64,000 bases of DNA, taken from the NCBI RefSeq assembly GCF_003634315.1, contig NZ_RBXL01000001.1, positions 2,030,501-2,094,500 on the forward strand, given 5' to 3'. The DNA is from Thiocapsa rosea (GTDB lineage: Bacteria; Pseudomonadota; Gammaproteobacteria; Chromatiales; Chromatiaceae). A program made the translations under genes and the position numbers. Numbering within the stretch: the first letter of the stretch is position 1; each line of letters begins with the position of its first letter. The notes under the pieces are model-generated. The model had not been told where the DNA came from and searched no databases. It worked only from the letters and a program-made list of their open reading frames with translations. Of the stretch, positions 1 through 22,559 are shown one piece after another.

Positions 1-2265
1 GGTCCAGGTGGGCACCGCGCCGATCGTCGTCCGCGTCCAACGCCCGCTCAGCGGCATCCAGCTCGAAGGTGCCGGACCAAAGCGGAAGGTCACGTCCGCT
101 GCGCCGCCGGATAGGCCGTTGCGCAGATGGAAGCTGCCGGTTGCCGGGTCATATAGGCCAATCGTGTGGCGTCCGTTGCCATTCCAGTCTCCGGCCAACG
201 GGACCCATGCGCGTCCAGCAGGGCCAAAGCGGAAGCTCGCGTCCGCGGCGCCGCCCCCGTGGCTGTTGCGCAAATAGAAGGCGCCGGTCGCGGGGTCATA
301 AAGTCCAACAGTGCTTATCCCGTCGCCGCTCCAATCTCCGGCCAAGGGCAGCCAGTTGCGCCCCGCCGGGCCGAACCGGAAGCTGTGATGCGCGGTGCCT
401 CCACTCAAGCTGTTGCGTAGGTAGAAGCCTCCGGTCGCGGGATCGTACAAACCCACCGTGTCGCTCCCGTTGCCGTCCCAGTCACCGCTCAGCGCACGCC
501 AATTGCGCCCGCCCGGGCCAAAACCGAAGCTGACGTCCGCCGCGCCGCCGCCGTGACTGTTGCGCAGGTAGAAGCGTCCTGCGCCCGGATCGTAGAGCCC
601 TACCGTACTCTGTCCGTTGCTGTTCCAATCCCCGCTCAAGGCTCGCCACCCTCGACCGGCCGGGCCGAAACCGAAGCTCACATCGGCACTGCCGGCGCTG
701 TTGCTGTTGCGCAGGAAGAAGGCACCTACAGCCGGGTTATAGAGCCCGGGGCCCGAGCCGTTGCTGGCTGTGCCCGCGAAGTTTGCTTGTAGGCTTGCGC
801 CCGAGTAAGCACTATAACCCTGCAACAGGATGTGGAAGCGACCGCCCACAGGGCTGGGGATTTGACAGGTCTCCGCGTTTCCGGTCGCCCATGAGCGACA
901 ATCAAACGTCGAGGTTGTCGGTGCAGTGCCTCGCCGAACATAGAGATCCATGTCGCCGGTACCGCCCCAGGTCCGCACGCTAAGGCTGTTTTGAGCGCTC
1001 GGTACATCGATGCAGTAGAGTCGTTCAGACCCGCTCGCCCCGCTCAATGCCGAGACCACTTGTCCGTTGCCGATGACCTGACAGCCGGATGTCCCGGCCC
1101 AAGTGTAATTTTGCCCGCTTTGGGTTGCCGTCACGTTCGTGTAACTGCGGCTCGCAGGACTGAAGGTACCGCCGCTTGTTGTGGCGGGCGTACAGGTACC
1201 GCTCCAGCCTTGAGTGACCGAGATACTGTAATCGCCCGAGGAATTTGTCGTGCCGGTTCCGCCGCTGTTGTTACAGCTCACCGTGACACCGGCCAAGCCC
1301 GCACCCGTATCCGAACGCGTCACACGACCGGACAAGGTTGGATTGGTGCCGCCGACCGGGACAAGGCTGAAATTTGCCATCCCGAAACCAAGATCATTCT
1401 GGTGTCCGCTATAGGCGATCCAAAAGGTGCCGTCGCCGTTGGGTCCGTTGGTGGCGCCCCAGCTGTTCTTACAAAGAAAAGCGCCTTTGGAGTCGTCCCA
1501 ACCGATCAGTAGGACGGCGTGCCCCCCTTCGAATGACCCCCCTGTATTCCGATAAACGGATCCCGCGCTCGCATTCGACCAATATGAGGTGAAATCGCTA
1601 TAAACCACATAGCGCCAGTAGCTCGGACCGTCATTGTAGAGCGACGCCTTGAAGGCCGTCGGCGTTTGCTGAACAGTATGGAAAGCTGTGACACGGTAAT
1701 TCATCTGAGACGCGCTTGGCTCATGGCAAGCCGTCGTATCCGAGGCTGTATATGGAAACACGCTTTCCGGGAGCGGGCCTTTATTTTCCCAATAACGTAA
1801 TGAGGTCGCGCTTCCGCCGCGGCATCCGGACATTGCCGTATTGCAGGAGACCTGTTGTTGCTCGGATAAGTCGCTGGTACCTCGGCCCATCTTGAGCAAC
1901 CGCGACTCAATCGAGCCGGCTGCCGCGAAGGCCCAGCATGAACCACAATTGCCTTGGTGCTTGGGCGTTGTCACGATTCCGGAGCTCCGGGCATCGTATG
2001 CGCTCGGAAGGGTCTCCTCGAGTCGCTCCAGAACGTCCTGCGGCAGGACTTTGAGGAGCTCCCGATATTCTTCCGGCTCAAGCGGGATGTCGCCTAACGG
2101 ATAAGGCGCTCCTTGGGCGAGCGGGCTTGTGATCAGCACCCCGGTCAGTGCGATGGTCAGTATGGCCCGGAAGAAAAATGACCAGGTCAGCTGCCGAGCG
2201 AAAGGCGATATCGAGCGTATTCGCGAATATCGCGAATGAGGGTTTGTCGAACTAAGAATGAACAT
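1..2265 (-). CDS. Secreted papain-family (C1) cysteine protease with five-repeat propeller module; C-terminus cut by window edge
   Basis: The frame is open from an ATG at 2265 to the window edge (755 codons, no stop). An ideal AAGGAGG lies 8 bases before the ATG. A long N-region and hydrophobic segment (about residues 28-51) end in a signal-peptide-like site. A short propeptide-like stretch (PLGDIPLEPEEYRELL) follows. The C1 catalytic set is intact: QGNCGSCW with Cys about 110, GGHAVLLIGWD for His, and CKNSWG for Asn. Downstream are a carboxypeptidase-regulatory-like beta-sandwich (SGRVTRSDTGAGLAGVTV), a PPC-like domain (GTGDMDLYVRRG) and five 49-residue repeats ending in SGRW. The protein is therefore an exported protease with accessory binding domains. 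Substrate is unknown. Neighbours on the same strand carry the same repeat module. Domains beyond the left edge cannot be excluded. Confidence 0.88.
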   Translation of the reverse strand, partial: MFILSSTNPHSRYSRIRSISPFARQLTWSFFFRAILTIALTGVLITSPLAQGAPYPLGDIPLEPEEYRELLKVLPQDVLERLEETLPSAYDARSSGIVTTPKHQGNCGSCWAFAAAGSIESRLLKMGRGTSDLSEQQQVSCNTAMSGCRGGSATSLRYWENKGPLPESVFPYTASDTTACHEPSASQMNYRVTAFHTVQQTPTAFKASLYNDGPSYWRYVVYSDFTSYWSNASAGSVYRNTGGSFEGGHAVLLIGWDDSKGAFLCKNSWGATNGPNGDGTFWIAYSGHQNDLGFGMANFSLVPVGGTNPTLSGRVTRSDTGAGLAGVTVSCNNSGGTGTTNSSGDYSISVTQGWSGTCTPATTSGGTFSPASRSYTNVTATQSGQNYTWAGTSGCQVIGNGQVVSALSGASGSERLYCIDVPSAQNSLSVRTWGGTGDMDLYVRRGTAPTTSTFDCRSWATGNAETCQIPSPVGGRFHILLQGYSAYSGASLQANFAGTASNGSGPGLYNPAVGAFFLRNSNSAGSADVSFGFGPAGRGWRALSGDWNSNGQSTVGLYDPGAGRFYLRNSHGGGAADVSFGFGPGGRNWRALSGDWDGNGSDTVGLYDPATGGFYLRNSLSGGTAHHSFRFGPAGRNWLPLAGDWSGDGISTVGLYDPATGAFYLRNSHGGGAADASFRFGPAGRAWVPLAGDWNGNGRHTIGLYDPATGSFHLRNGLSGGAADVTFRFGPAPSSWMPLSGRWTRTTIGAVPTWT
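37..747 (-). repeat. Five-repeat module, copy A (in the C1 protease)
   Basis: Four 49-residue repeats plus a 41-residue last repeat (237 residues, 711 bases). The repeat pattern is GLYDPATGxFYLRNS, then GGxADxxFxFGPAG, then WxPLxGDWxGxG. The last unit ends in PLSGRW instead of GDWxGxG. Confidence 0.9.
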
Positions 2266-2378
2266 CGTATTGGCCTCCTTGATATACCGCATCACTGAAA
2301 AAGCATCGCCACGCATGCGTTTCGGTCACATTTTGCTGTCGGCAGGGACCTCTATGACAGGAATGGATTCCTTCACGT

Positions 2379-2804
2379 TCAGCTCCGATCGGGTCTTGTC
2401 GCGCCGAGGGCCTCGATCATCCCTTCGCCCACATCGGCCACCAAATGCGTCGTCAGGCCATCCTGGCCTGACAGAATCAGGGCTGGAAGCCCTGACTTCG
2501 CAGGAACCGCAAGCAGTTGGACCAGACGATGATCAAGGCCGCGCCGAGCATCATCATCTTTCGGCAGATCCTGCTCGATCTGTTCCAGCGCGGCGGGCGG
2601 ATCGGCGCGAAGATAGCTCCGATACTCCTCTGGACTGAGTGGAATATCCCCAAGCACGTAAGGGAAGTCCGCCGAGCTCGCGGTAGATGCGCCGGCCAAG
2701 AAGGCCGACGTCAGCAGGACGCCGAGAGATCGCCTGAACTTCTCCGGAGCGGACTCCAACTGCGCCGGTATTGATTGACCGGCACGTACGCTGATGATCG
2801 ACAT
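2379..2804 (-). pseudogene. Truncated papain-protease paralog (signal peptide and propeptide-like part only)
   Basis: A 141-codon frame with a GGAGG 9-13 bases before its ATG. Residues 1-45 look like a signal peptide. The next part (PYVLGDIPLSPEEYRSYL ... LEQIEQDLP) closely matches the start of the mature region of the neighbouring C1 protease. Similarity stops where that protein reaches its SAYDARSSG / QGNCGSCW active-site segment. The rest of this frame runs through two hairpins and resembles no protease. It is most simply a decayed tandem duplicate. A stand-alone propeptide acting as an inhibitor of the neighbour is possible but unsupported. Confidence 0.6.
2452..2495. repeat. Two tandem hairpins, REP-like
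   Basis: The first hairpin is GTCAGGCCA-TCC-TGGCCTGAC (2452-2472). Four bases later comes the second, TCAGGGCT-GGA-AGCCCTGA (2477-2495). Both stems are perfect with 3-base loops. They sit just after the point where the truncated protease loses similarity to its paralog. Confidence 0.7.
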
Positions 2805-3494
2805 GATGTCTAGATGCCTCCATACGCATCAGTGGAGACGACGGCCCATCGTTATGCCGGCGCGGGAGGGCATCGATGCGTGTCGCGGTGCAGAAATGGG
2901 CTGGCCTCGTCCGCTTTCCACGACATGGGTCGCGAGTCTGGTCGCTGCGCTGACCGGCGCGGTGGGACGGCTATCCGATGGGCCGCTCGTGTGTGTGCGA
3001 GTGACCACGCAGACTGCCGCAATCGGCGGATTGCCGGGGCATTTGGTCTCGCGATGGAGCAACAGGGCGTGGAAGCAGACCGGGAGCTGCTCGTAAGATC
3101 CTTGAGGCAGAGTCCGCGCGGGACTGCGATCGCGTAGCCTGAGCATGTCACAACGCCACTGGAAATCCTTCTCATCGCGCTGTCGGATGGCCTTGGGAGA
3201 TCCGGCATCAGCTTAAGCTTAGTCGAACGAGTCGTTTTCGCCAGATCGGCTCGCGCGTGTTCCGTCACCAACGCGCGAAGTGGCTCTATCTTCAGCGGCT
3301 TAGGTGATTTCCGGGAAAGGATCTACCGGCGTGTAGGGGCGAATGAATTCGCCCCTACAGTCCCTACAGGTCTTCCTGGCATGCGCAAACGGGATGCCAA
3401 TTCCCGGAAATCGCATTAGCGGACTGACGGACGTCGGCACATCCTTGTGCCACGGAACCGCTGATTCAGTCAGCGTTTGCCCGGACCAGCGCAA
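2805..3494. other. Gene-free stretch with one palindromic element
   Basis: Open frames here are short, overlap on both strands and resemble nothing recognisable. The only clear structure is the palindrome at 3332-3359. Confidence 0.5.
3332..3359. repeat. REP/MITE-like palindrome (GTAGGGGCGA family), copy 1
   Basis: Arms TGTAGGGGCGAAT and ATTCGCCCCTACA pair over 13 bases around a GA centre. A near-identical element with a different core lies at 6541-6568. The two copies flank the gene at 3495-6062. Palindromes with TGTAGGGGCGA ends are widespread dispersed repeats in bacteria. Confidence 0.75.
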
Positions 3495-6062
3495 TCAGTC
3501 CAGCCGGATGCGCTCGGTTAGACCGGTGGCCATCTCGTGCCTGTAGACCCCGAACTCCTCCTCGAGGCCATCCGCCGCGAGGTTGCTCGCCTCGGAGACG
3601 AAGACAGCCCAATCCCCCTCGGCACTCAAGCGTGCGCTGCGACTCGCCGCATCTCCCGGTTCGCCGAAGCTGCTCACGCTGATCCTTGCGGTTTTTCCGC
3701 TCGCCATGTCGTGTACGAAGACGTCGGCCACACCGTTCGTGTCGTCCGCCACCAGGTTGCTTGCCTCGGAGATGAACACCACCCGCATGCCTGCTCCGTC
3801 GAGATGCGGACCTTTGCTTGATCCATCCGCGGGGTGTCCGCCCAGGCCGTGGCTAATCAAAGAGAGCGCATCGGTCAAGACGTCGTAGCCGTAGACGTCC
3901 ATCAGGCCGTTGGTGTCCTCCGCCACCAAGGCTGCGGCAGTTGCAAAGACGATACGCCCGCCGTCGGCACTCACTGACAGGTTGCGGGCCTCCGCCTCGC
4001 CCATCAGCTTGCGCAGCCCCGTCGGCAACTCCGACCAGTCCGTGGCACGCGAGGCCGGCACGGCCTCGGCTGTCGCGTCTGTCATCTCGCGCATCGCCTG
4101 CTCCGCGGTCATCAGGCCATTGGTCCCGGTCGAGAGGAGCCATTTGCCGGTCAAGGGCGCCCAACCTTCGGAGCTGGGGCCGAAGCGGAAGACATGGTCC
4201 GCAGCCCCGCCGGACAGGCTGTTGCGCAGATAGAAGGTGCCGGTGGCGGGGTCGTAGAGCCCGACGGTGGTGCGACCGTCGCTGTCCCAGTCGCCGCTCA
4301 AGGGCACCCAGCTGCGCCCGGCAGGACCGAAGCGGAAGGTGGCGTCGGCCGCGCCGCCACCGAGGCTGTTGCGCAGATAAAAGGTGCCGGTAGCCGGGTC
4401 GTAGAGCCCGATGGTGGTTTGTCCGTTGTTGTTCCAGTCACCGGTGAGAGGTACAAAGTTGCGGCCCCCCGGACCAAAGCGGAAGATCGCGTCCGCCGGA
4501 CCACCGGCGAGACTGTTGCGCAGATAGAAGCTGCCGCTGCCCGGGTCGTACAGACCGATGGTGCTGCGTCCGTTGGCGTTCCAATCACCGCTCAAGGCGG
4601 TCAAGTTCCGACCCGATGGACCGAAGATGAAAGTGTTGTCCGCGGTGCCCCTGCCGTGTCCGTAGCGGAGGAAGAAGGCACCACGCGCCTGGTTATAGAG
4701 CGCGACTGTGCTCTGCCCCGTGCCGTTCCAATTCCCTGTCAGCGCTTTCCAGCCCACGCCGGCTGGACCGAACGAGAAGCTGGCGTCTGCCGCGCCACCT
4801 TGATGGCGGTCACGCAGATAGAAACCACTGGCCGTGGGGTTGTAGAGACCGATGTGGGTCGCCCGCTCCAGTCCGGTGATGCGGATGTCGTCGATGTACC
4901 AGCCAGGACTGCCCGATAAATACCAGAACGAATCTACGGCGAGTAAGAGCCCGAGTCTTATCCGCTTACCACTATAGGCCGTGAGGTCGATCTGAATCGG
5001 CGACCATATCGCGCTAGATCCGGTGTAGTTTCCGCTTGCGTTTTGCCAGGCTGACCAGGTCGAGGTGCCGGTATCGAAGGCGGAGACTTGGATTCGACTG
5101 CTTCCGCCGCGACCCCAACTGAACCAATGCCAGGCACGAAGGGTCAACTCTTCGGTGCCGGCGATCCCGGGCAAGGCAATGGTCGGAGATACGAGGCGGC
5201 TACTGTTGTTCGGATAATCGCCGTGCAGGATGGTCGCAGCGCAGCGTGTCCCTTCGTAACAGTTCCCCGGTCCTGCGGTCGGACTTCCGATCTCCCAAAC
5301 GCCGTTGTCGCTAGACCAGTCGCCCCATCCGCCCTCGAAATCGCCGGAGAACACGGGCACCGTCCGAATGACACGGATGTCGTCGACATACCAGCCAGGA
5401 TTGCCGGATACGTACCAGAACGAATCTACGGCGAGTAACAGCCCGAGTCTTACGCGCTTGCCACTATAGGCGGTGAGGTCGATCTGAAGCGGCGACCAGA
5501 CTCCGCTGAGTCCGGTATAGTTCTCGCTCGCGTTCTGCCAGGGCGACCAGGTCGATGTACCGGTATCGAAGGCGGAGACTTGAATCCGACTGCTGCCGCC
5601 GCGACCCCAACTAAACCAATGTCGAGCCCGTAACTGTATCTCTTCGCTCCCCGAGACCTGCGGTAGATTGATGGTGGTCGAGATCAGCCGGCTGCTCGTA
5701 TTCGGATAGTCGCCGTTCAACACGGTTCCGACACATTTGGTGCCTTCATAACAGCCCCCGGGCCCAGCCGTGGGCGTACCCAACTCCCAGACACCGTTGT
5801 CGGCGGACCAACCACCCCATCCAAGCTCGAAGCCATCTTGGAATATAGTCGTGGCCGCGCCGACCGGGACCGCCGCTAACACAAGTCCAAGCATCAGCAG
5901 CAGATTGGACACAAGCCAAGCGCGCGCGCTGCGCCGTGCGGCGGTCTCGCGTGCGGCCGCGAGGGCGGGACACGTATTGGATACGGCGTAGCATTGCCCG
6001 GCAGGTGCCGATCGGAATAGCAGGCCAAGCGTTCTTCGGTGCAAGGGGGGGCGCGTCGACAT
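3495..6062 (-). CDS. Secreted protein: two jelly-roll domains, five-repeat propeller module, C-terminal PD40/TolB-like domain
   Basis: The frame extends to an ATG at 6149, but the ATG at 6062 is preferred because GAGAGGA lies 7-13 bases upstream and the signal-like segment follows (855 residues). A hydrophobic stretch at about 49-68 ends in VGAA. Two tandem copies of a roughly 165-residue domain follow (DGFELGWGGWSADNGVWELG / GDFEGGWGDWSSDNGVWEIG, ending PGWYVDDIRV); this resembles the jelly-roll domains of secreted peptidases and adhesins. Residues 405-641 are the five-repeat module. The tail (about 690-855) has PD40-type units (SEASNLVADDTNGVADVFVHD), each beginning LSADG/VSADG. No catalytic motif is visible, so a binding or structural role outside the cell is likely. 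The tail is homologous to that of the gene at 6693-9347. Confidence 0.82.
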   Translation of the reverse strand: MSTRPPLHRRTLGLLFRSAPAGQCYAVSNTCPALAAARETAARRSARAWLVSNLLLMLGLVLAAVPVGAATTIFQDGFELGWGGWSADNGVWELGTPTAGPGGCYEGTKCVGTVLNGDYPNTSSRLISTTINLPQVSGSEEIQLRARHWFSWGRGGSSRIQVSAFDTGTSTWSPWQNASENYTGLSGVWSPLQIDLTAYSGKRVRLGLLLAVDSFWYVSGNPGWYVDDIRVIRTVPVFSGDFEGGWGDWSSDNGVWEIGSPTAGPGNCYEGTRCAATILHGDYPNNSSRLVSPTIALPGIAGTEELTLRAWHWFSWGRGGSSRIQVSAFDTGTSTWSAWQNASGNYTGSSAIWSPIQIDLTAYSGKRIRLGLLLAVDSFWYLSGSPGWYIDDIRITGLERATHIGLYNPTASGFYLRDRHQGGAADASFSFGPAGVGWKALTGNWNGTGQSTVALYNQARGAFFLRYGHGRGTADNTFIFGPSGRNLTALSGDWNANGRSTIGLYDPGSGSFYLRNSLAGGPADAIFRFGPGGRNFVPLTGDWNNNGQTTIGLYDPATGTFYLRNSLGGGAADATFRFGPAGRSWVPLSGDWDSDGRTTVGLYDPATGTFYLRNSLSGGAADHVFRFGPSSEGWAPLTGKWLLSTGTNGLMTAEQAMREMTDATAEAVPASRATDWSELPTGLRKLMGEAEARNLSVSADGGRIVFATAAALVAEDTNGLMDVYGYDVLTDALSLISHGLGGHPADGSSKGPHLDGAGMRVVFISEASNLVADDTNGVADVFVHDMASGKTARISVSSFGEPGDAASRSARLSAEGDWAVFVSEASNLAADGLEEEFGVYRHEMATGLTERIRLD
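4140..4850 (-). repeat. Five-repeat module, copy B
   Basis: Five repeats in 237 residues, identical in length to copies A, C and D. It starts GLYNPTASGF and ends PLTGKW. The first two units are the most divergent (GNWNGTG; ALYNQARG). Confidence 0.9.
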
Positions 6063-6692
6063 CAAGCGATCCTCTCGTTCCCTAACCTGATTATTGTTGT
6101 GTCGGATGAGGATCGCGGGCCGATGTGCCGGTAGCGTTCTCGTCGTCACGCCGACACCTCGTCAGGGGACGGCCGACACGTCTTTGGCTTCGGCGTGTAT
6201 GACGCCGAGCAGAATTAGCCTAAGACGCGTACAGTTATTCTTCAACCCAAAGTGGACGGCTTCGGCCTGATTCGTAACAGCAAAGCGACGAACGGTTGTA
6301 CTGGCGCTCGCCTAACTTCGCGCCACTACGACGACCGATCGCTCGACATAGCTGTAGCCCGCGGCGAGTGCGCTGAACTCCGTCGAAGGATAGCTTCCTC
6401 AATGAATTACTCGGGAATCAATGCGTCGGCTCGGAACCGAGCCAAGTGTGCTGGAGTCAGGTTCGAGCGACCTGGTGGTTGACTGCGGGCCACCGGAGTG
6501 AGGTTCGTCTGAAGGTGATTTGCGTGAAAGCATCGACCAATGTAGGGGCGACTTAAGTCGCCCCTACAGCTCGTGCAAGCGTGTACAGCCCGATCGATGG
6601 TTTGGCCGCGCCCCGGTCGGCGCGTTCCGATCATGGCGGTAAACGGAGCGATCGACTCCGCACCGACCGGCGGCGGCCTTTGCTTGGGCGTG
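6063..6692. other. Gene-free stretch upstream of the jelly-roll protein
   Basis: No convincing gene on either strand. It should contain the promoter of the gene at 3495-6062 and the 3' region of the gene at 6693-9347. The one clear structure is the perfect palindrome at 6541-6568. Confidence 0.5.
6541..6568. repeat. REP/MITE-like palindrome (GTAGGGGCGA family), copy 2
   Basis: A perfect 28-base palindrome with arms TGTAGGGGCGACTT and AAGTCGCCCCTACA. The outer 11 bases match the element at 3332-3359 exactly; only the centre differs. Confidence 0.78.
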
Positions 6693-9347
6693 TCAGTCGA
6701 GCTCGATCCGTTGGGTCAAGCCGCTAGCCAGCTCGTGCGCGAACAGGGCCTCCCCTCCATCGAGGCTGTCCTCCGCCAGGTTGGTCGCCGCAGAGACGAA
6801 GGCGACATGGCGGCCGTCGGCACTCAATCGCGCAGCACGGCTGGCACCGTCGGCAGCCTCGCCGAAGCTGTTCCGGCTGATGCGATGGATGTGGTCGAAC
6901 GCCGCCTCGTAAAGGAACACATCGGCCGCACCGTTGATGTCGTCTGCTACCAGGTTGCTCGCCTCGGAGACGAATACCATCCGCATACCGGCACCGTCGA
7001 GGTGCGCCCCGAAGCTTGCTCCGTTGCCGGCGCGCCCGTCCGTGCCGCGGCTGACCAAGGCGAGGGTGTCGGCGAGCGGGTCATATCCGTACACATCCGT
7101 CGTGCCGTTCGTATCCTCCGCCACCAGAGCCGTGTCGGTCACGAAGACGATCCAACCGCCGTCGGCGCCGGAGTAGGCGTCCCGAGCTTCCGCTTGTGCC
7201 TCGGTCAATCGCGTCTGCAAGGAGGTCGGCAGCTCGGAAGGATCGAGCGCGCGGGAGAATGGCAGGGCCGCATCCTCGTTCAAGGCGTCGGCTGCCTCGA
7301 GCAAAGCCGAATCGATATCGTTGCCCGCCGTGCCCGGGAGCTGCCATGTCCCGCTCAGCGGTGTCCAGCTCGATGGTGCCGGGCCAAATCGGAAGCTCAG
7401 GTCGGCGGTCCCGCCGCTTAATCTGTTGCGCAGGTAGTAGCTGCCTGAAACCGGGTCGTACAGCCCGATGGTGGTTTGTCCGTCGCCGTTCCAATCTCCG
7501 CTCAAGGGGACCCAGTTGCGCCCGGCCGGACCAAACCGGAAGCTCACGGACGCAACCCCGCCGCTGAGGCTGTTGCGAAGATGGAAGGTTCCGTCAAGCG
7601 GATCGTACAGGCCGATGGTGGTTCGTCCGTCGCCGTCCCAGTCCCCGCTCAAGGGAATCCAGTTGCGCCCCGCCGGACCGAACCTGAAGCCGTAATCGGC
7701 TGCCCCGCCGCCAAGCGTGTTTCGGAGAAAAAAGCTCCCGGTTGCCGGGTCGTAGAGACCGACGCCGGCTCGCCCGTTGCCGTTCCAGTCACCGCTCAAG
7801 GGTCGCCAGGCGCGCCCCGACGGACCGAACCCAAAGCTGAGATCGGCTACGCCGCCCCCGATAGTATTCCGGAGATAAAACACCCCCCGCGCCGGATCGT
7901 AGAGCCCGACGGTATCCTGTCCGTTGCCGTTCCAATCCCCCGTCAGCGGGCGCCAATCCGATCCTGACGGGCCGAATCTGAAGCTTGCGTCCGCCGCGCC
8001 GCCACTGTGGCTGTAGCGTAGGAAGAAGGCCCCCGCGCCGGGATTGTGCAGACCGACATGGTCTGCTCGGGGGGGCACGCCGAGCTCGACCGAGCCGATA
8101 TCGACGTTACCCCCGGTCACTCGAGGCGCACCCCGCTGGTCTCTCCCGACTCCGGCTGGAATTAGGCTGTTGCTGCCGCCGTTGACGGCAGGGCCGCCGG
8201 AAACCGGGAGATGCGTTCTGGTCGGGCCGCCGTTGTTGCTCAGGGCGACTACTGCGGTCGCGATCGAGCCGGAGAGGATCAGATCGCCGGCGCTGGGCGT
8301 GACGTTCGTGAGCCCGGAGACGCCGTTCTGACCGAAAAGGTTGTACCCGCGGGAGGTGAAGGTACCACGCGTCGAGGGTCGGATGATCTCGATGCCCGTG
8401 TTGCCCATGGCCGTGGTGCGATTGCCGGCCACGATGGAGTTGGAGATGAACAAGACCCCGTCTACGTAAATTCCTCCTCCCTCGCGTGTTGCGAGGTTGC
8501 CGGTGATGGTCGAGTTGGCAACAGCCAGTCCGCCGGAGACGGACAAGGCGCCGCCTCGCTCCGCGGTATTTCCGGACAAGGTGTTGTTGTAGAAAGTGAC
8601 GTTGTTCGCCGAGCCCATCGTCACGCCACCTCCGGGACCATTGGGGGCCGAGTTCCCGTTAAGTGTGCTGTTGATGACGGTCAGCATGGTTGCAGAGTTG
8701 CTGCTGTAGATGCCGCCACCGCCGAAGCTGCTTGTCGTTATATTGTCGACCAGGGTGCTTTCGTTGACGATCAAGCTGCCGCCGACCTCGTTGTTGATGC
8801 CCCTGCCCCGGTTCTCGGACACTAGGCTGCGATTGAGGGTGAGCCTGGCGTTGTAGCCGCGATTGGATAGGCCGGAACTGAAATTCCCCGAAATCTCGCA
8901 GTTGTTGACCGTCAAGATGCCGTCATTATTGACGCCAATGCGTGCGTTCGTGATTCGCAGTCCCGATATCGTGACGGTCCGATCCGACCTGATCACTAAG
9001 CCATCGGACTGACGATTGGGAAATATCGTGAGCGTGTCGGCACCCGGGCCGACGATGTTCAGATCGCGCGAAATCGATGGGAGCTGCGTCAGGAGCACGA
9101 TGTCGCCCCTGAGGCCGGCCTGAAATCGGATCGTATCGGCCCCTGTCTGAACATTCGCGTTGGCATCGCGGATGGCTTGTCGGAGCGAGCCGAGACCGCT
9201 GTCGTTTAGGTTGGTGACCGTAAAGGTGGCCGCATGTGCCGTCGTCGGCAAGAGCGTAAGGCTGGCTGCCGAGATGGCGAGAACAGCGGCGATGTTGACG
9301 AGCCGAGATCCGAGCGTGTTGGGACGTCTGCTGCGAAGCGCGTTCAT
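6693..9347 (-). CDS. Secreted parallel beta-helix protein with five-repeat propeller module and PD40/TolB-like tail
   Basis: The ATG at 9347 is preferred over the upstream one at 9410; GGAG lies 12-15 bases before it and the signal peptide (AAVLAISAASLTLLPTTAHA) follows at once. The mature protein opens with TFTVTNLNDSGLGSLRQAI, a hallmark of secreted right-handed beta-helix proteins. About 390 residues of helix coils follow, with repeated NSTLxGN / NNTLSGNTAxxGGA units. Residues 432-668 are the five-repeat module. The last ~180 residues match the PD40-like tail of the gene at 3495-6062, including SEASNLVADD and the terminal LTQRIELD. It is a candidate adhesin or polysaccharide-binding protein; no lyase catalytic residues can be assigned. 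Confidence 0.85.
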   Translation of the reverse strand: MNALRSRRPNTLGSRLVNIAAVLAISAASLTLLPTTAHAATFTVTNLNDSGLGSLRQAIRDANANVQTGADTIRFQAGLRGDIVLLTQLPSISRDLNIVGPGADTLTIFPNRQSDGLVIRSDRTVTISGLRITNARIGVNNDGILTVNNCEISGNFSSGLSNRGYNARLTLNRSLVSENRGRGINNEVGGSLIVNESTLVDNITTSSFGGGGIYSSNSATMLTVINSTLNGNSAPNGPGGGVTMGSANNVTFYNNTLSGNTAERGGALSVSGGLAVANSTITGNLATREGGGIYVDGVLFISNSIVAGNRTTAMGNTGIEIIRPSTRGTFTSRGYNLFGQNGVSGLTNVTPSAGDLILSGSIATAVVALSNNGGPTRTHLPVSGGPAVNGGSNSLIPAGVGRDQRGAPRVTGGNVDIGSVELGVPPRADHVGLHNPGAGAFFLRYSHSGGAADASFRFGPSGSDWRPLTGDWNGNGQDTVGLYDPARGVFYLRNTIGGGVADLSFGFGPSGRAWRPLSGDWNGNGRAGVGLYDPATGSFFLRNTLGGGAADYGFRFGPAGRNWIPLSGDWDGDGRTTIGLYDPLDGTFHLRNSLSGGVASVSFRFGPAGRNWVPLSGDWNGDGQTTIGLYDPVSGSYYLRNRLSGGTADLSFRFGPAPSSWTPLSGTWQLPGTAGNDIDSALLEAADALNEDAALPFSRALDPSELPTSLQTRLTEAQAEARDAYSGADGGWIVFVTDTALVAEDTNGTTDVYGYDPLADTLALVSRGTDGRAGNGASFGAHLDGAGMRMVFVSEASNLVADDINGAADVFLYEAAFDHIHRISRNSFGEAADGASRAARLSADGRHVAFVSAATNLAEDSLDGGEALFAHELASGLTQRIELD
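7344..8054 (-). repeat. Five-repeat module, copy C
   Basis: 237 residues, starting GLHNPGAGAF and ending PLSGTW. The third to fifth repeats are the closest to the consensus, with GDWDGDG and GDWNGDG loops. Confidence 0.9.
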
Positions 9348-10024
9348 GTTGAGGGTGACTCCTGGTTCGAGGCTAAGACCGAAGCACGAGCGATTGCTGA
9401 AAAATGTCAACCATCAATTGATTTCAGAAGGCCGCCTAGATGGCGAAATTTCGGTTTGGCGTAACTTAGGCAGATGCCGGATAACTCTCTGTCTATTCAT
9501 CAGAATACAGCCAGGGAGGGTATCCCGTGTACGAAGCGCGAATTCTACACCACTGTCTCGTTCCGTTGCTGTAGTCAATTTGCGTGTTCCATGACCACTC
9601 GCCACGGATTCCGCCCTGATTGGGTCGGCCAGGGCAGGCGGCGATGCAGGATCGCCGTTCAGCACGAATTGACCCTTCTCGGAGCAAGGGGGGCGACATG
9701 CAACGCTTGTTCGTGCTTGTGATTCGTGGGTGTCGGGGGCGGCACCGGTTCGAGATCGGGCGATCGCAGCCGGTCTCGGGCGGCGCTTAGCAGTGTCGTG
9801 AGAGGTCCGAAGCGCCCGCCGGTGCGGCGTGCCGGGCGGGCAGGATGCCCTGCGCCATGGTCTTGCGCCGCCGCGTGCGAGCCGCCCGGATCCATAGTCG
9901 ATCCGGGCGATTCGTAACAAAAGCGTTCGAGCTTTGCGAGCCGGGCATGATGCCCGGCTCGTTGTGTCACGCACGTTCCTGAGGGTCGGCGGGATCTCGA
10001 TGCCTCAGGCTCGACCGCGCGATT
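9348..10024. other. Gene-free stretch with clustered palindromes
   Basis: No gene could be supported. Frames here are arginine/proline-rich on both strands and look like shadow translation of GC-rich DNA. The right part (about 9830-9961) carries several strong inverted repeats. Confidence 0.5.
9884..9961. repeat. Cluster of REP-like hairpins
   Basis: Two perfect hairpins: GCCCGGATC-CATAGTC-GATCCGGGC (9884-9908) and CGAGCCGGGCA-TGA-TGCCCGGCTCG (9937-9961). A weaker GGGCA-GGA-TGCCC lies just upstream. The second lies downstream of the subtilase gene and could act as an RNA 3'-end stabiliser, but it has no clear T-tract. Confidence 0.6.
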
Positions 10025-12841
10025 CTAAGGCGTCCATTTTCCCGAGATGGGTGTCCAACCCGCGCCTCCGGGGCCGAAGCCGAAGACCACATCGGCAGCA
10101 CCTCCACTGTTTGCATTGCGGAGATAGAAGGCACTGGTCGAAGGATTAAAAAGCCCGACTGTCGTCTGGCCGTTGCCGTTCCAGTCACCGGTCAACGGCA
10201 ACCAACCGCGTCCGGCAGGCCCGAAGCCGAAGCTGATATCCGCAGCTCCCCCGCTGTTGGCATTGCGGAGATAGAAGGTGCTCGTGCCCGGATTGTACAG
10301 ACCGATCGTCGTCAGACCGTTGCCATTCCAATCACCGGTCAACGGCAGCCAGCCGCGCCCGCCAGGTCCGAAGCTGAAGCTGACGTCCGCAGCTCCACCG
10401 CTGTTGGCATTGCGGAGATAGAAAGTGCTCGCCGCCGGATTGTAAAGACCGACCGTGGTCCGGCCATTGCCGTTCCAATCACCGGTCAAGGGCGTCCACC
10501 CGCGCCCCGCAGGCCCGAAGCCGAAGCTCACCTCCGCAGCTCCCCCGCTGTTGGCGTTGCGGAGGTAAAACGAGCTTGTCACCGGGTTGTACAGGCCGAC
10601 CGTCGTCTGGCCGTTCCCGTTCCAGTCCCCCGTCAGCGGCCTCCAGCCCCGCCCGGGAGGACCAAAGCCGAAGACGGTGTTGGCCGGTCCCGCACTATTG
10701 GCATTGCGCAGATAGAATGTACTTGTCGCGGGATTGAAGAGCCCGTTGCTCATTCCCGATCCGGCGATGGCGGTGAAGCTGAAGCTCACCGCGCAGTTTG
10801 CCGTCACGGCTCCTGTCGTATAGGTGCTACCGCTCCAGCCGCCTGCCGGGCAGGTGCCGCCGACTGCAGTGTTGCGCGTGAAGCCGGTATTGGCCGTGAC
10901 TGTGAAACTGGCAGTCGCGCCCAGCAGCACGAGCCGTGAGGTTGGTGTGACGCTACCGCCGGGTCCGGCGGTTGCGGTGACGGTGCGAGTGACGATGATG
11001 ATCGGCGTGAAACTAAAGCTGACGGCACAGTTGCTGGCGATCGCTCCGGTCGTATAGACGTTGCCGCTCCAGCCCCCTGGAGGGCAAGTTCCAACCACCG
11101 CGTTGTTTCGCGTGTACCCGGTATTGGCGGTAACTGTGAAGCTTGCCGTCGAGCCCTGGTTCACGATTCGCAAGGAAGGCGTTACGCTCCCGCCCGTCCC
11201 GGCCGTCGCGGTGACGGTGCGCAGCGTGGGCGGGGACGGCAAGGCGTCCACGGCTCGGGCCAGGTTGACGCGCGGTTTGGTGATGGCAACCTTGCCGTCG
11301 GTCACGGGATCGCCGTTGGTGGTCAGATACTGGCGGACCTGTGACGGGGTGAGAAAGGCGCCCGTTCTCGCCTTGGCGGCACTCTGCAGGACCGCTGCCG
11401 CTCCCGCGGCGTAAGGCGCAGCCGCCGAGGTACCGCCGAAGGTGGGTGTGTAGTCTCCGGAAGTGTATCCGCCCGCTCCCCTGATATCCGGGCTGTAGGC
11501 ATCGTTCGATGGGGCGAACATGGTCAAGAAAGAGGCCGAGTTGGAGTATGCCGTCACCCGATTGGACAAGGCGTTCTCGAAGGCTGCCCAGCCCGTGGGA
11601 CAGCCGGGATTCTGCTCTTTCGTGGCGCAAGAGGTCGACGCGACACACCAGCCTTTAGAGCCGACATTGGCGTCATAGACGGCACCGACCGAATTGACAT
11701 GGGAGATACATGCCGGCCAACCGGTACCATTGCAGAATCCATCGTTTCCGGAGGAAACGAAGATCGTGATTCCTGCAGCGACGGCGTTTGCGGCAGCGGT
11801 CGTCATGGCCGGAACGGCGCTGTTGCAGGCGGTCTGACCGGAGAAAAAGCCTCCCCCGAAGCTGGTATTGATCACCAGGATCGGGTTTGCGGGATCGCTG
11901 TTCTTGTTGGTGATGGCCCACTCCCAACCGGCAATCATCGCCGACGTCGTTGCGGAGCCGGTGTTCCCGGAAGAGATCTTGATCGCGTAAAGCTTGGCCC
12001 CGGGTGCGACCCCCCCGATGTAATCGCCGACGGTACCCAGGTTGCCGGCTGCAATACCGGCGGCGGCGGTTCCATGTGCGTTGCCGAGCGTAGGGTGCGG
12101 CCGTGGATCGTTGTCGTTGTCTCCGGTGTCTCGCCCGCCGATGACCTTGGCGTTGAAGATCGGTTGGCCGCCCCCGCCCAGCATGGGATGGCTGGTGTCG
12201 ATGCCGGTGTCGGTCACGGCGATGCTGATCCCGCTGCCGTTGTAGGTGCTGCGCGGCGTGACCGCATTCATCAGCGGCAAGCCCTGTCGGAGCTGCGGCT
12301 CCAACTGCCAGTCATGCTCGATCCGGACGACATCGGGGTGGCGTGCAATCGCGTCTAAAGCGTCCGGAGTAACCCGCGCAGCGAAGCCGAACTGGTACGA
12401 GAAGCGCTGGGTCACCTGAACGCCCGGACCCGCGATCTCGCCGAGCACCCGCTCGACCTCCTCGGTCACGGCATTCGAGAGATCAACCCGGATGGACTCG
12501 TTCTGAAGGTCGTAGAAGACGGCGTCGCTCTCCCCGTCTAGACCCTCGGGTACCTCGGCGGACAACAACGACTGAGCGGCCAAGACCTCGGCTGCCGCCG
12601 TCGGGCGAAGTGACACGATCACCTGGGTTTCGGGCAAGCCTGCCCGAAAGTCGGCCAACACGGCCGATGAGTCGAGCAGCTTGGCGTTACTCGCAAGGCG
12701 GTCGGTCAGGACCGATGGGGGCGTGTCGAGGTCCGACCTCGGGTCAGTGGGTTCCTGGCCGGCCTGGATGATTGCGGGTACAAGACAAAAGAGCGACAAA
12801 ACGATAAAACGGCTGACGAAACCTGCCATTGGCGATGCCAT
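10025..12841 (-). CDS. Secreted subtilisin-like (S8) serine protease with two beta-repeat domains and five-repeat propeller module
   Basis: Start fixed by AAGGAGG 5 bases before the ATG. A signal peptide covers residues 1-27, and an inhibitor_I9-like propeptide runs to about 195. The S8 triad is visible: Asp211 in AVTDTGIDTSHP, His256 in GNAHGTAAAGI and Ser472 in GGTSAAAPYAAG; the oxyanion Asn lies in SSGNDG near 365. Several cysteines in 368-415 could form disulfides, fitting an extracellular enzyme. Two ~75-residue repeats follow (TVTATAGTGGSVTPSLRIV and TVTATAGPGGSVTPTSRLV), of the bacterial surface beta-repeat type. The five-repeat module (700-936) ends two residues before the stop. The protein is an exported endopeptidase; substrate unknown. 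Confidence 0.93.
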   Translation of the reverse strand: MASPMAGFVSRFIVLSLFCLVPAIIQAGQEPTDPRSDLDTPPSVLTDRLASNAKLLDSSAVLADFRAGLPETQVIVSLRPTAAAEVLAAQSLLSAEVPEGLDGESDAVFYDLQNESIRVDLSNAVTEEVERVLGEIAGPGVQVTQRFSYQFGFAARVTPDALDAIARHPDVVRIEHDWQLEPQLRQGLPLMNAVTPRSTYNGSGISIAVTDTGIDTSHPMLGGGGQPIFNAKVIGGRDTGDNDNDPRPHPTLGNAHGTAAAGIAAGNLGTVGDYIGGVAPGAKLYAIKISSGNTGSATTSAMIAGWEWAITNKNSDPANPILVINTSFGGGFFSGQTACNSAVPAMTTAAANAVAAGITIFVSSGNDGFCNGTGWPACISHVNSVGAVYDANVGSKGWCVASTSCATKEQNPGCPTGWAAFENALSNRVTAYSNSASFLTMFAPSNDAYSPDIRGAGGYTSGDYTPTFGGTSAAAPYAAGAAAVLQSAAKARTGAFLTPSQVRQYLTTNGDPVTDGKVAITKPRVNLARAVDALPSPPTLRTVTATAGTGGSVTPSLRIVNQGSTASFTVTANTGYTRNNAVVGTCPPGGWSGNVYTTGAIASNCAVSFSFTPIIIVTRTVTATAGPGGSVTPTSRLVLLGATASFTVTANTGFTRNTAVGGTCPAGGWSGSTYTTGAVTANCAVSFSFTAIAGSGMSNGLFNPATSTFYLRNANSAGPANTVFGFGPPGRGWRPLTGDWNGNGQTTVGLYNPVTSSFYLRNANSGGAAEVSFGFGPAGRGWTPLTGDWNGNGRTTVGLYNPAASTFYLRNANSGGAADVSFSFGPGGRGWLPLTGDWNGNGLTTIGLYNPGTSTFYLRNANSGGAADISFGFGPAGRGWLPLTGDWNGNGQTTVGLFNPSTSAFYLRNANSGGAADVVFGFGPGGAGWTPISGKWTP
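10034..10744 (-). repeat. Five-repeat module, copy D
   Basis: 237 residues with very uniform units (FYLRNANSGGAAD in most repeats, GDWNGNG loops). The low divergence between its repeats suggests recent internal amplification or homogenisation. It ends PISGKW. Confidence 0.92.
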
Positions 12842-13245
12842 GCTGCCTCCTTATCGGAACGGATGAATCCGCGCGTGCGCGAAGCCCTGTTGTGGATCAA
12901 TGCTGAGCATAGGCGATTTCCGCACTTTTTGACATTGAGGCCGACGCTTCAATTGGGATATCCAGCCTCCGGATCGCCCGGGACAGCGGCAAGTGCGCCC
13001 GATCTTCTTGAACGCGGATGCTTTGGAGCGATAGGTCACGGCGGCGAGCGGGTTCGCCGATGTGACGGGAAAAGCGGCCTTGCGGTTGTGCGGTGACTCC
13101 GCCGGCTGAAGTAACATTCGTAAGACTGATGTTGGCGCTCGTCGAGCAGCGGAACCGAGACACTCCGATGAAGTCGCAATCGGGAGGAATGTGGTCGCTC
13201 CGGACGGCCTGGCGACGGACTTCAACAGTTTGATGGGATGTCACG
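12842..13245. other. Divergent intergenic region between the subtilase and the toroid protein
   Basis: Both flanking genes read outwards from here, so promoters for both must lie inside. I could not assign convincing -35/-10 pairs. No gene is supported. Confidence 0.5.
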
Positions 13246-15567
13246 ATGAAAGCGAAAATAGCCCTTGGCCTGGCGTTTGTGATGATTTCCATGCTCGCCG
13301 GTGGGCAAACGTCCCCGGGCGGGAGTGCTTCAGGTCTGGCGGGCGCGGAAGGCAACTCCGCGGAGATCTCGCTCGAGACCCGTAACGAGGTCGCTTTTGC
13401 CCGCACGGCCGATATTCGCGAGCGATCCGAGTCACTTCACGATCGCGCAGTGCGGCATGATTCCTGGATGCGACAGAGTTTGATGCCCGCGGGCGGAGTG
13501 ATGTCCGCCCAGTTCACGGATCAGACGTACAGTAGGGTTCAGAGCTATGGTGGCCGCCGCGACCCCGCAATTTGGACGGGCGCCTATCTGGCCGCTCAGG
13601 CGCTGCGGCTCATGGATACCGAATCCGAGGAAGCCGCGCGCCGGCTCGCGGAGTCAGTTCGTGTCCTCGATCGTTGGTGGCGGATCTCGGGTGATCCGGG
13701 TTATCTCGCGCGGTTTGCGGCGCCGACCGATAGTGCGGCCGCAATCTTGGCGACCTTGTCGGCCGATGATCCCGAGGTGATTCGCAACGTTTCCTTCGAG
13801 GGGCAGACATGGCATTGGCGCGGCCGCGTCAGTCGGGATCAATATCAGGGCGTGATGCTCGGAATGTCGCTCGCCTATGAGGCGACCCAGGATCCCGCGA
13901 TCCGTCGGATCATCCGTGAAAACGTGACTGGTTTTGCCGAACAGCTGATGCGCAGTGAACGCAAGCGGGTCAAGGTGATTATTAACGACTCCAGTAATTT
14001 CTCGACAACGCTGACGCTGCAGCATGTTGTCTACACGGACGACGAAACTCCGGATGGGGTGCCGATTCTCCGGGTTTCGACGAGCCCCTTTGCGGCGGAG
14101 GGGTCGGGGATGCTCGTTTTTTGGCCCAATCCGAGCGAATTCGTGCGGCAGATCCCGGGTCTTGGATCATTGCCGGATGTCTTTCTACCCAGTCAAGCCA
14201 TTCAACTCGCGGCGACTTTTCGTGTGGCGATGCAGGTCACGGAGGGGGTTCCCGGCTTTGAAGCACGCCATCAGGCGTTGCGTGCTCATTACGATGCGAA
14301 CTTCGGTAAATGGTTCGATATCGCCAAAGGCTGGGAGAATACCAATGAATGTGGTGATAGCTACCATGGTCTGAACATTGCGTTTATGCCCTTGTTCAAC
14401 TGGGTTAGCCTCGAAACGGATCCACTGCGAAAGGGGCGGCTCCAGCGCGAGGTTCTTCGGAATCGACTCTGGTCCGCTGTTGCGTCGCACAAAAATGTTT
14501 TCTTTGCGTATATCTATGCTTCGCTGGCGCCTCCGGGAGATTCTACCGAGGAGCTGATCGCCGCGAGCTTGGCGCAGCTCGCGCTGTTTCCCGATGCGCC
14601 GCAGCGTGCGCTTCCGCTCGACGTGCGCGGCAAGTATCCGGCTGATCCGAACTGTCCCGGGCTTTCGGCGGTCGCTACCGATGTGAATGATCGGGCCGGG
14701 GCGACCTTCATCTGGGAGCGGCACCCCTGGAAGCTTGTCGATGCGGGCGGCTTGAATATGGCCTATGCCGGGGTCGATTATCTGTTGGCCTTTTGGCTCG
14801 GCCGCTACGCCGGATTCATACCAGATGATTCGGTCGCTACTGTCGGCCTCTACAACCCCGTCGGCAGTACTTTTTTCCTGCGCGATACGAACAGCAGCGG
14901 GCCGGCCGATTTACGCTACGATTTCGGTCCCAGGGATTCCGGATGGCGCCCGTTGGCTGGCGATTGGAACGGCAATGGGCAGTCGACGGCAGGTCTATAC
15001 AACCGATCTACAGGGACCTTCTATTTGCGGGACAGTCATTCAGGAGGCCAGGCTGACCGGCGCTTTCGCTTTGGTCCGAGTGCTGCCCAGAACTGGCTCC
15101 CGCTAAGCGGTGACTGGGACGGGGATGGTCAGTCAACGGTTGGACTCTATAGCCCGTCGACCGGAATCTTTTTCCTGCGCAACAGCCATGCCGGAGGAAT
15201 GGCCGATCACAGTTTTCGCTTCGGCCCGAGTAAGTCGCGCTGGTTGCCGCTGAGCGGAGATTGGAGCGGTGACGGTCGGACCACGGTCGGGTTATTCGAT
15301 CCGTCGACCGGGACCTTTTTTCTGCGCGACGATCATGCGGGTGGAATGGCCGATCACAGCTTCCGCTTCGGACCGCAGTCATCAGGTTTGCTGCCGCTCA
15401 GCGGTGATTGGAATGGAGACGGGCGTAGCACGGTTGGGCTCTATGATCCGATGACGGGTCGATTCTGGTTGCGTAACAGCCTTTCGGGCGGGACGGCAGA
15501 CGTCAGTTTTCAGTTTGGCCCGGCGCCGTCGGCTTGGCTCCCGCTGGCCGGGCGGTGGATGCGTTAG
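13246..15567 (+). CDS. Secreted putative alpha/alpha-toroid (glycosidase-like) protein with five-repeat propeller module
   Basis: 773 residues. MKAKIALGLAFVMISMLAGG is a signal peptide, possibly of lipoprotein-like length but with no lipobox Cys. Residues 45-530 are helix-rich, with motifs of (alpha/alpha) toroid folds: DPAIWTGAYLAAQALRL, a paired helix at LAESVRVLDRWW, QYQGVMLGMSLAYEAT, and ECGDSYHGLNIAFMPLF. I cannot name the family. A polysaccharide-active enzyme is plausible; catalytic acids are not identifiable by eye. Residues 534-771 are the five-repeat module. It is the only member of the repeat cluster on the plus strand. Its last 65 bases overlap the end of the convergent membrane-protein gene. 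Confidence 0.8.
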   Translation: MKAKIALGLAFVMISMLAGGQTSPGGSASGLAGAEGNSAEISLETRNEVAFARTADIRERSESLHDRAVRHDSWMRQSLMPAGGVMSAQFTDQTYSRVQSYGGRRDPAIWTGAYLAAQALRLMDTESEEAARRLAESVRVLDRWWRISGDPGYLARFAAPTDSAAAILATLSADDPEVIRNVSFEGQTWHWRGRVSRDQYQGVMLGMSLAYEATQDPAIRRIIRENVTGFAEQLMRSERKRVKVIINDSSNFSTTLTLQHVVYTDDETPDGVPILRVSTSPFAAEGSGMLVFWPNPSEFVRQIPGLGSLPDVFLPSQAIQLAATFRVAMQVTEGVPGFEARHQALRAHYDANFGKWFDIAKGWENTNECGDSYHGLNIAFMPLFNWVSLETDPLRKGRLQREVLRNRLWSAVASHKNVFFAYIYASLAPPGDSTEELIAASLAQLALFPDAPQRALPLDVRGKYPADPNCPGLSAVATDVNDRAGATFIWERHPWKLVDAGGLNMAYAGVDYLLAFWLGRYAGFIPDDSVATVGLYNPVGSTFFLRDTNSSGPADLRYDFGPRDSGWRPLAGDWNGNGQSTAGLYNRSTGTFYLRDSHSGGQADRRFRFGPSAAQNWLPLSGDWDGDGQSTVGLYSPSTGIFFLRNSHAGGMADHSFRFGPSKSRWLPLSGDWSGDGRTTVGLFDPSTGTFFLRDDHAGGMADHSFRFGPQSSGLLPLSGDWNGDGRSTVGLYDPMTGRFWLRNSLSGGTADVSFQFGPAPSAWLPLAGRWMR
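14845..15558 (+). repeat. Five-repeat module, copy E
   Basis: 238 residues: the second repeat has one extra residue (PSAAQNWLPL), the other units are 49 and the last is 41. It starts GLYNPVGSTF and ends PLAGRW. Confidence 0.9.
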
Positions 15568-16987
15568 CTGCGGAAGTCTGTCGGGTCGCCACCCAGACCG
15601 TCATCATCCAAAAGACCAGCGCAGGCATGAAATGCATGAAAACGCGGTTGATGCTTGTGCCTTGAACAGCCCAGAGATAGGCATCGGTCCAGAAAAAGAG
15701 AATGTATAGACCGATAAGACTCGCAAGTGCCCATACGATCCCTGCGCGTTCCCACGGCTGTGTATCTTGCCGTGTAGCGCGTGGCAGTGTCCAAAGCACC
15801 GCGAGGACTGTAAGGTATCCGAGAAGATGCCAGTTGTCGTACAGGAAGAAGTGTTTGAGCACTGGTGCCCAGACTCCGTGGTACGCCAGATCGAACCGAC
15901 CTAGGTACGGCAGCTCGATCCGCTCGAGCCCTAACCAAATCTGTCCGAGCCCCGGCAGGTCGACGCTGACTCCGCCGGTGGTCCAAAGCAGCAGGCCGAA
16001 TCCCAGCAATAATCCAGGCAGGACGAGCAGCCAACCCCCGCGGAGTCGTGCGGCGGTCCATGCGGGGATGAACAGCAGCGCCCACATGACGCCCTCCTGT
16101 TTGATCAGCGCACTGCAGAGGATGAGTGCGAGTGCAAGGCCCAGCTGACGTCGATCCTCGGACCGCGTCCATTGCAAGAACGCCATGAAGGCGAACCCGA
16201 GCGCTGTTGCCATCCACAGATCGGCATACCCCGCCAAGGCGATGTGCGTGTTCAGCAAGGGCATGGACATGAGAAGCCACATAAAGACCAGGGCGGTCAG
16301 TGCCGATACGCCCCAAAGGCGTGCCTGCCCATAGAAGCCGAGCGCGAGCGCAAGCGCGCAGCCCAGCCAGGGAAGATTGGCGGCGGTTTCGTTCCAGCTA
16401 CCCAGGGCCAATGCCGGCCAGGCGGCGATGAGCGAGACCGTGGCCGGGTAGTTCCAAGCGTCGACGGTGTAGGCGTTGCCCGAGGTGTCGCTCAGCCAGT
16501 CCTGCGGCGAGACGAACGGGACCAGCGCGCGGAGCTCCGACCAGACCCGTGCGCGTGCGGCCCAGGTTGTCCAGGCATCCCAGGGAAAAAGTGGTTGCCA
16601 CCAGACCTCGAGCGCTAGCCCGATGAAACGCACGGCGAGCCAAAGGGCGAGCATACCGAAGGCGAGGCGGGTCCAGAACGATGCGGGGATGGCGTCTCGG
16701 TGCGATGGTGCGACGGGGCTTTGGTGACGGATCACGCGTATTGCGATCATGACCAACAGCGTCAGAACGAGGGCGGAAGGTGCAAAGGCAAGCGAACCGA
16801 GCAGGAATGCCTGAAGTTGCAGGAGCAGGGTGACCCCGATTAGCCCCAAAACATAACCGTAACCCAAAATGAGCGGCCAACGTCCGGGGGTCGGCTCGGG
16901 CCAGAATACGCGCAGCCACAGGATGGCAGCCAGCGAAGGGAGGAGGAGCGCGGCCCAGACCGACAACCAGCTTAATCCCTGAGTCAT
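15503..16987 (-). CDS. Polytopic membrane protein, possible GT-C-fold glycosyltransferase
   Basis: 494 residues with about 11-13 hydrophobic segments. The first begins at residue 8 and the last ends in FMHFMPALVFWMMTVWVA. After the third or fourth segment there is a periplasmic loop with WWQPLFPWDAWTTWAARA; an acidic residue at this place is typical of lipid-phosphosugar-dependent GT-C enzymes. No family-defining motif is certain. The ATG overlaps the stop of the upstream gene (ATGA, 16984-16987), so the two are almost surely co-translated. The 3' end overlaps the convergent toroid gene by 65 bases. Confidence 0.7.
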   Translation of the reverse strand: MTQGLSWLSVWAALLLPSLAAILWLRVFWPEPTPGRWPLILGYGYVLGLIGVTLLLQLQAFLLGSLAFAPSALVLTLLVMIAIRVIRHQSPVAPSHRDAIPASFWTRLAFGMLALWLAVRFIGLALEVWWQPLFPWDAWTTWAARARVWSELRALVPFVSPQDWLSDTSGNAYTVDAWNYPATVSLIAAWPALALGSWNETAANLPWLGCALALALGFYGQARLWGVSALTALVFMWLLMSMPLLNTHIALAGYADLWMATALGFAFMAFLQWTRSEDRRQLGLALALILCSALIKQEGVMWALLFIPAWTAARLRGGWLLVLPGLLLGFGLLLWTTGGVSVDLPGLGQIWLGLERIELPYLGRFDLAYHGVWAPVLKHFFLYDNWHLLGYLTVLAVLWTLPRATRQDTQPWERAGIVWALASLIGLYILFFWTDAYLWAVQGTSINRVFMHFMPALVFWMMTVWVATRQTSAANASTARPAGAKPTAPGQTEN

Positions 16988-22539: not shown

Positions 22540-22559
22540 TCGATTTGATTCATGATGCT

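Follow-up and report, generated by a model that had tools for sequence, protein, structure and literature searches.

A five-repeat module, predicted to be a closed beta-propeller, is shared by eleven secreted proteins in a variable polysaccharide locus of Thiocapsa rosea

Introduction

The placing of one common tag on many unrelated exported enzymes is familiar from choline-binding modules, SLH domains and the C-terminal domains of type IX secretion. Shared surface tags are a known kind of protein module, as are propeller lectins, among which tachylectin-2 is five-bladed with repeats of 47 residues. Two systems lie closest to the locus described here. In the Streptomyces umbrella toxins, UmbA (PDB 9oee; PMC13274773) is a secreted protein whose C-terminal beta-propeller carries Ca-type loops and is fused to a trypsin-like domain; the propeller of UmbA4, with two sugar sites and a conserved Ca-loop framework, binds the cell-wall glycan of target cells (PMC13274773). 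In Vibrio cholerae, the propeller of Bap1 and RbmC anchors secreted proteins to the polysaccharide of the producer itself (PMC10102183).

The module that we describe in Thiocapsa rosea shares features with both. As in UmbA, a propeller with Ca-type loops is found in secreted proteins, one of which (m2) has a trypsin-like domain; UmbA4, however, has more than five blades and is aimed at competitors within an UmbA/B/C toxin particle. As in Bap1/RbmC, one propeller recurs in different secreted proteins, and binding to the producer's own polysaccharide is our working model for the module; in contrast, Bap1 and RbmC are only two adhesins, their propeller is a different one and it sits on adhesion domains, not on shuffled proteases. 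With the FG-GAP/VCBS family (PF13517) the module has in common a weak profile match, DxNxDG-type loops and divergent homologues that match strongly, but it scores below the Pfam cut-off itself and its 49-residue repeats come in strict fives. The choline-binding, SLH and type IX anchors differ in having other folds, none of which was matched; moreover, the tag on a given front end here changes from one sister species to another. The initial annotation of this DNA took the cluster to be undescribed, and neither an eleven-protein set within a polysaccharide locus nor tag exchange between sister species was found in the open-licence literature; a text search of these papers with the repeat motif was likewise without a match.

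Eleven secreted proteins carry the module

The window, that is the whole stretch of 64,000 bp analysed here, spans C1:2,030,501-2,094,500 of the genome (6.1 Mb, two contigs). It holds five copies of the module, at 37-747, 4140-4850, 7344-8054 and 10034-10744 (minus strand, 711 bp each) and at 14845-15558 (plus strand, 714 bp), at the coordinates and in the frames first proposed for them. Chance is excluded by their pairwise identity of 58-71% and by the matches of the module in the genome, with E values of 1e-107 to 1e-131. The number of proteins had to be raised from five to eleven, as the window starts inside the cluster and its edge cuts off the rest: genome-wide there are eleven copies, all in the 54 kb of C1:1,992,029-2,046,058. 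Ten of them have a length of 237 residues (711 bp), and the 238 residues of gene 5 arise from a one-residue insertion in repeat 2. Each module comprises five repeats, the first four of 49 residues and the last of 42.

Genes 1 to 5 of the window correspond to m7-m11 of the set, with front ends assigned by Pfam. Gene 1 (m7; 1-2316, minus strand; C1:2029436-2032816) encodes a signal region, a papain protease (PF00112, 2.1e-36) with intact Cys, His and Asn motifs, a CarboxypepD_reg domain, a PPC domain (PF04151, 1.7e-12) and the propeller of five repeats. The gene extends beyond the edge of the window, and about 366 more residues follow the module, including a shared C-terminal domain outside the window. 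When the translations are compared by eye, the short reading frame at 2379-2804 (minus strand) is similar to the pro-region at the N-terminus of gene 1 (DIPL.PEEYR...), and it is probably a remnant or decayed duplicate of the adjoining papain gene. In gene 2 (m8; 3495-6149, minus strand) two InhA-like MAM domains of jelly-roll type (PF20773, 6.3e-8) precede the propeller and the shared C-terminal domain. Gene 3 (m9; 6693-9410, minus strand) has a right-handed beta-helix (PF13229, 2.4e-12) and, directly before the propeller, a choice-of-anchor Q domain (NF041518, 3.5e-13); the shared C-terminal domain follows. The subtilase of gene 4 (m10; 10025-12841, minus strand; I9 and S8, PF00082, 1.1e-33), with intact Asp, His and Ser motifs, is joined by linker domains to a C-terminal propeller. 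Gene 5 (m11; 13246-15567, plus strand) likewise ends in the propeller. Its front end, first proposed to be a putative alpha/alpha-toroid enzyme, is helical and enzyme-like; a Pfam search returned no match and assigned no family, and a single-sequence structure prediction was helical but at a pLDDT of 35. The papain, subtilase, beta-helix and jelly-roll front ends recognised earlier are thus all borne out by Pfam or NCBIfam profiles.

Among the proteins outside the window, m1 and m5 are further subtilases, m2 is a trypsin-like protease, m3 and m4 are SBBP proteins, the former with DUF7948 and the latter, a lipase-like protein, with an alpha/beta-hydrolase domain, and m6 has an NHL/SGL propeller in front. 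Catalytic motifs are intact in the proteases of the cluster. The module lies at the C-terminus or within 8 residues of it in seven of the eleven proteins, while 214-366 residues follow it in the other four. These four (m6-m9, three of them being window genes 1-3) have in common an extra domain of about 200 residues after the module, with a mutual identity of 48-66%. By eye this post-propeller domain (window 1-2316 and 3495-9410; L006:15022-17514) is TolB/PD40-like, and it was seen in the four cluster proteins only.

Predicted structure of the module

An AlphaFold prediction from an alignment of five sequences gave a five-bladed beta-propeller (pLDDT 90, pTM 0.88) with 19 strands of at least three residues at a period of 49 residues, i.e. 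five four-strand repeats that are predicted to close into a ring. The first strand of the module is GLYDP and the last PLSGxW. Judging by the sequence and the positions of the strands, these two ends would pair to complete the last blade, which would account for the constant length of four full repeats and one without its loop. The initial annotation had proposed a closed fold that is duplicated as a whole, to be doubted if structure prediction gave no closed domain. A closed domain is what the prediction gives, and the five repeats retained across phyla and the copying of linker and module between unrelated front ends at the DNA level (both below) also uphold that proposal.

In a Foldseek search the sole match below E 0.001 was 9oee, the UmbA4 lectin with bound teichuronic acid (E 1.4e-5). 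The same structure came first in a second structure aligner (Z 13.2, rmsd 3.9 Å, 226 residues), followed by YjiK and glutaminyl cyclases and, close behind, the Psathyrella lectin PVL. Integrin alpha propellers were also among the structure matches. The glutaminyl cyclases are five-bladed, and their match spans module residues 16-237 at 3.1 Å. The best solved match has only 16-20% identity and more blades than the module, and a sequence search against solved structures gave no significant match; nor did the module match Pfam Tachylectin up to an E value of 1.

The best score of a module against PF13517 (FG-GAP_3/VCBS) was 21.8 bits, below the gathering cut-off of 26.9 (gene 4, E 3e-4). Since L085, a distant homologue, scores 82 bits (4.7e-23), kinship of the module with this wider family is likely. 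The inter-strand DxN/DxDG loop is present in the repeats of this genome, with D41 in 84%, N/D43 in 91%, D/N45 in 94% and G46 in 100%. The position of the third Asp of the Ca-loop is Asn in half of the copies' repeats, which makes metal binding by the module uncertain.

Membership of m2 among the umbrella-toxin UmbA proteins was considered and rejected. The UmbA trypsin-like domain is without the catalytic triad, whereas m2, the only trypsin-like protein of the cluster, has kept its His, Asp and Ser motifs. No UmbB- or UmbC-like genes were noticed among the annotated neighbours of the cluster.

Local copying of the module within the cluster

Each of the eleven modules is nearest to another of the eleven (65-97% identity), and matches elsewhere reach at most 58%, which points to local amplification. 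This reading rests on identity and not on the module tree, which is poorly resolved (six of 28 branches well supported). The closest pair is that of m2 and m10, with propeller proteins 97% identical. At the DNA level, the two genes share a stretch of 938 bp with 93.3% identity that comprises a linker domain and the propeller (window 10055-10992, minus strand, and C1:1996501-1997438), and their front ends, trypsin-like in m2 and subtilase in m10, match in the linker only. Linker and propeller have therefore been copied by recombination as a unit between unrelated genes.

Homologues in other organisms

That the repeat type occurs outside this organism was anticipated, and a scan of genome contigs returned 79 loci with the module in Blastocatellia, Planctomycetes, Chloroflexi, Actinobacteria, Desulfobacterales, archaea and others. 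Viral contigs contained no relative at the sensitivity used, and plasmids only distant ones (29-31% identity). Exactly five repeats were found in 84 of 112 reading frames. Most apparent sixes are either five repeats flanked on both sides by a circularly permuted half-repeat or the result of a spurious weak match, and two proteins carry double sets of five. Freely varying repeat numbers, named in the initial annotation as evidence against a closed domain, were not seen; the sole clear exception to five is a protein of Chloroflexales with eight tandem repeats (L024, 1217-2218).

The partners are diverse. Matches to 54 Pfam families were obtained for 67 N-terminal partner regions, with subtilase and peptidase M23 as the commonest (8 each). 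Partners of the module also include VanY, GH16, sulfatase, glucose dehydrogenase and 5'-nucleotidase. In different homologues the module stands at the C-terminus, in the interior or at the N-terminus, or alone behind a signal peptide. A nearly constant number of five repeats (or two fives) on unrelated partners indicates a closed portable domain, and the variable position argues that this domain is not a C-terminal sorting signal. In the other genomes with many copies (Blastocatellia, Planctomycetes) the modules are dispersed.

The cluster lies in a hypervariable polysaccharide locus

Among the genes of the cluster lie others for an ABC-2 permease and ATPase pair, for sulfotransferases and for multi-domain glycosyltransferases. 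Downstream of gene 5 the cluster runs on into a block of surface-polysaccharide genes (window 18610-37430, plus strand) for GT41, GT1 and GT2 glycosyltransferases, an acyltransferase and an NAD-dependent epimerase, inside which two secreted proteins without the module are encoded at 21394-24492. The two genes at 15503-18165 (minus strand) match no Pfam family; the sister genome G009 has relatives of them, 27-34% identical, in its polysaccharide locus. The first of the two has the appearance of a polytopic membrane protein and is possibly a GT-C enzyme. Six of the 37 Glycos_transf_1 matches of the genome fall within these approximately 88 kb (1.4% of the genome), where about 0.5 would be expected. 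The right border of the variable locus is formed by a Wzm/Wzt-like ABC exporter pair (45831-48049, plus strand; PF00005 in the second gene), which is kept in every sister genome compared, with identities of 86% and 76-77%.

The cluster interrupts this ABC-transporter polysaccharide locus, which extends from pyrB to hslUV and is hypervariable. With like flanks, the pyrB-hslUV interval measures 116 kb here versus 61-80 kb in sister genomes. The 66-kb stretch with all eleven modules is missing from G001 and G002 save for a few weak matches to generic families, and in G009 only scattered matches to it were found, whereas both flanks and the ABC exporter pair are conserved. The variable part has a GC content of 54-64%, compared with 68% for the core downstream of it. 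Genes are imported into polysaccharide loci with particular frequency, so that linkage alone is no proof of a shared function.

Only two of the 11 genomes of the genus have the module. In the sister genome G005, a divergent propeller protein adjoins genes that do not resemble polysaccharide genes. This SBBP protein (L101/L118) has five repeats in which the framework is kept and the C-D strand region is replaced (GWWFLDVNGDGFW), as would be expected of a changed putative binding site.

Exchange of C-terminal tags in the genus

The front ends of the cluster recur in the genus with other ends. The m1-type subtilase (S8, an InlB-like repeat, a MAM-like domain) has the propeller at its end in this genome. 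A relative encoded in the same locus of G009 (57% identity) has three F5/8 type C (F5_F8_type_C) domains there instead, and one in G008 (58.8% identity over 634 residues) a different tag of about 247 residues, termed tag B. Likewise, a paralogue of the gene 5 front end (C1:380,676-383,234; 75.2% identity over 464 residues) lies elsewhere in this genome and ends in tag B; so do the orthologues in G001, G003, G004, G005 and G008. The combination of a beta-helix with choice-of-anchor Q precedes the propeller in gene 3 and tag B in G001; as BLAST gave no alignment of these two beta-helix front ends, they share the architecture alone. Lcl_C and sulfatase partners were found with either tag, in different organisms. 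At least three C-terminal tags, namely the propeller, tag B and the triple F5/8 type C domains, have thus been swapped on shared front ends in the genus.

Tag B (C1:374875-383234 of this genome, G000, with L125/L126; L147-L163) is common to many different secreted proteins of the genus. It is present in seven of the 11 genomes with up to eleven matches each, five of them within 17 kb in G001, and in five genomes the set has a gene for a methyltransferase and an RgpF-type rhamnan gene as neighbours. Neither Pfam nor NCBIfam has a model for tag B. Homology of the propeller and tag B was not detectable (hhalign probability 0.5%). The end of tag B at L126:2488-3231 (FDPATNRLFLRF) resembles the repeat motif of the propeller (YDPATGTFYLRN), with a non-significant profile alignment (17 columns, E 0.12).

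Putative function of the propeller

On balance, we find it somewhat probable that the propeller is an interchangeable glycan-binding tag whose purpose is to keep secreted effectors on the surface polysaccharide of their own producer. The tagged proteins would be exported through Sec and would then cross the outer membrane, perhaps through a type II secretion system, which is possible given two secretin genes in the genome (strong matches within 12 kb on opposite strands, C1:1552238-1564366). The propeller, predicted to fold autonomously, would then bind repeating units of the cell-surface or capsular glycan that the surrounding genes may make, and a common ligand would hold all effectors in one layer. 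The greater similarity of the eleven modules to one another than to outsiders fits one shared ligand. Module-only proteins with a signal peptide and fusions to cell-wall enzymes (M23, VanY), both found elsewhere, also count for a surface tag. The distance of the closest solved fold in sequence and blade number, the uncertain metal binding, the scattered modules of other multi-copy genomes and the neighbourhood of the G005 protein weigh against this reading.

The propeller could instead be a lectin that recognises foreign glycans, on competitor bacteria, algae or plant and fungal polymers, and delivers proteases and lipases to them in the manner of UmbA lectins or ordinary carbohydrate-binding modules. 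The closest solved fold indeed recognises target cells, modules elsewhere are fused to GH16, sulfatase and cell-wall hydrolases, and several front ends here are degradative. We nevertheless regard this as rather unlikely, since all eleven copies lie in the producer's polysaccharide locus and are missing along with it from the sisters, since the copies within the genome do not show the divergence expected of a set for varied targets, and since the beta-helix, NHL, SBBP and MAM fronts are non-degradative. Propellers also commonly bind proteins, and integrin alpha propellers are among the matches, so that the module might gather the effectors on a common scaffold protein at the surface. Conservation of the module across copies would fit such a single partner; none of the genes in the cluster, however, could be recognised as a candidate for the scaffold, and F5/8 type C domains, whose usual ligands are glycans or lipids, point by their substitution for the propeller to sugar. 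Protein docking therefore appears improbable.

Lowest of all we rank a secretion, sorting or folding signal for an export or surface-attachment machine comparable to that of type IX C-terminal domains. In its favour, sorting signals typically take the form of one C-terminal tag shared by many cargos, seven of the eleven modules here are C-terminal or nearly so, and choice-of-anchor Q stands ahead of the propeller in gene 3. The long extensions after the module in four proteins, its N-terminal or internal position elsewhere and its occurrence in Gram-positive Actinobacteria all speak against this, and a whole closed propeller of 237 residues is not a short signal. A type IX C-terminal domain in particular was rejected, as no NCBIfam or Pfam model of it matched and the module is not always C-terminal. 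Among the roles first suggested for the module, surface docking or polysaccharide binding is therefore best supported by context, closest fold match and tag swapping, though as a putative role, while a secretion-related one finds little favour.

If the tags do bind glycans made by their neighbours, the same enzymes could dress any surface polysaccharide by exchange of the C-terminal tag. More tentatively, each surface-glycan locus of the genus might bring a matched tag of its own (propeller, tag B or F5/8 type C), front ends being re-tagged by recombination as the glycan changes, and polymer and protein coat would then be exchanged together. Binding to the producer's own glycan would explain how Gram-negative producers retain enzymes without sortases or type IX secretion, would provide a natural set of genetically linked glycan-binder pairs and would make a definite prediction about dozens of secreted proteins, as yet unnamed, from several phyla.

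Additional reading frames in the window

Two further reading frames are of note. The Wzt-type ATPase frame of the exporter pair (46652-48049, plus strand) also matches DUF29 in its C-terminal part (1e-24), an unusual combination. Near hslUV, a frame of 1090 residues (53725-56997, minus strand) matches PhageMin_Tail (2.3e-33) and is possibly a prophage remnant.
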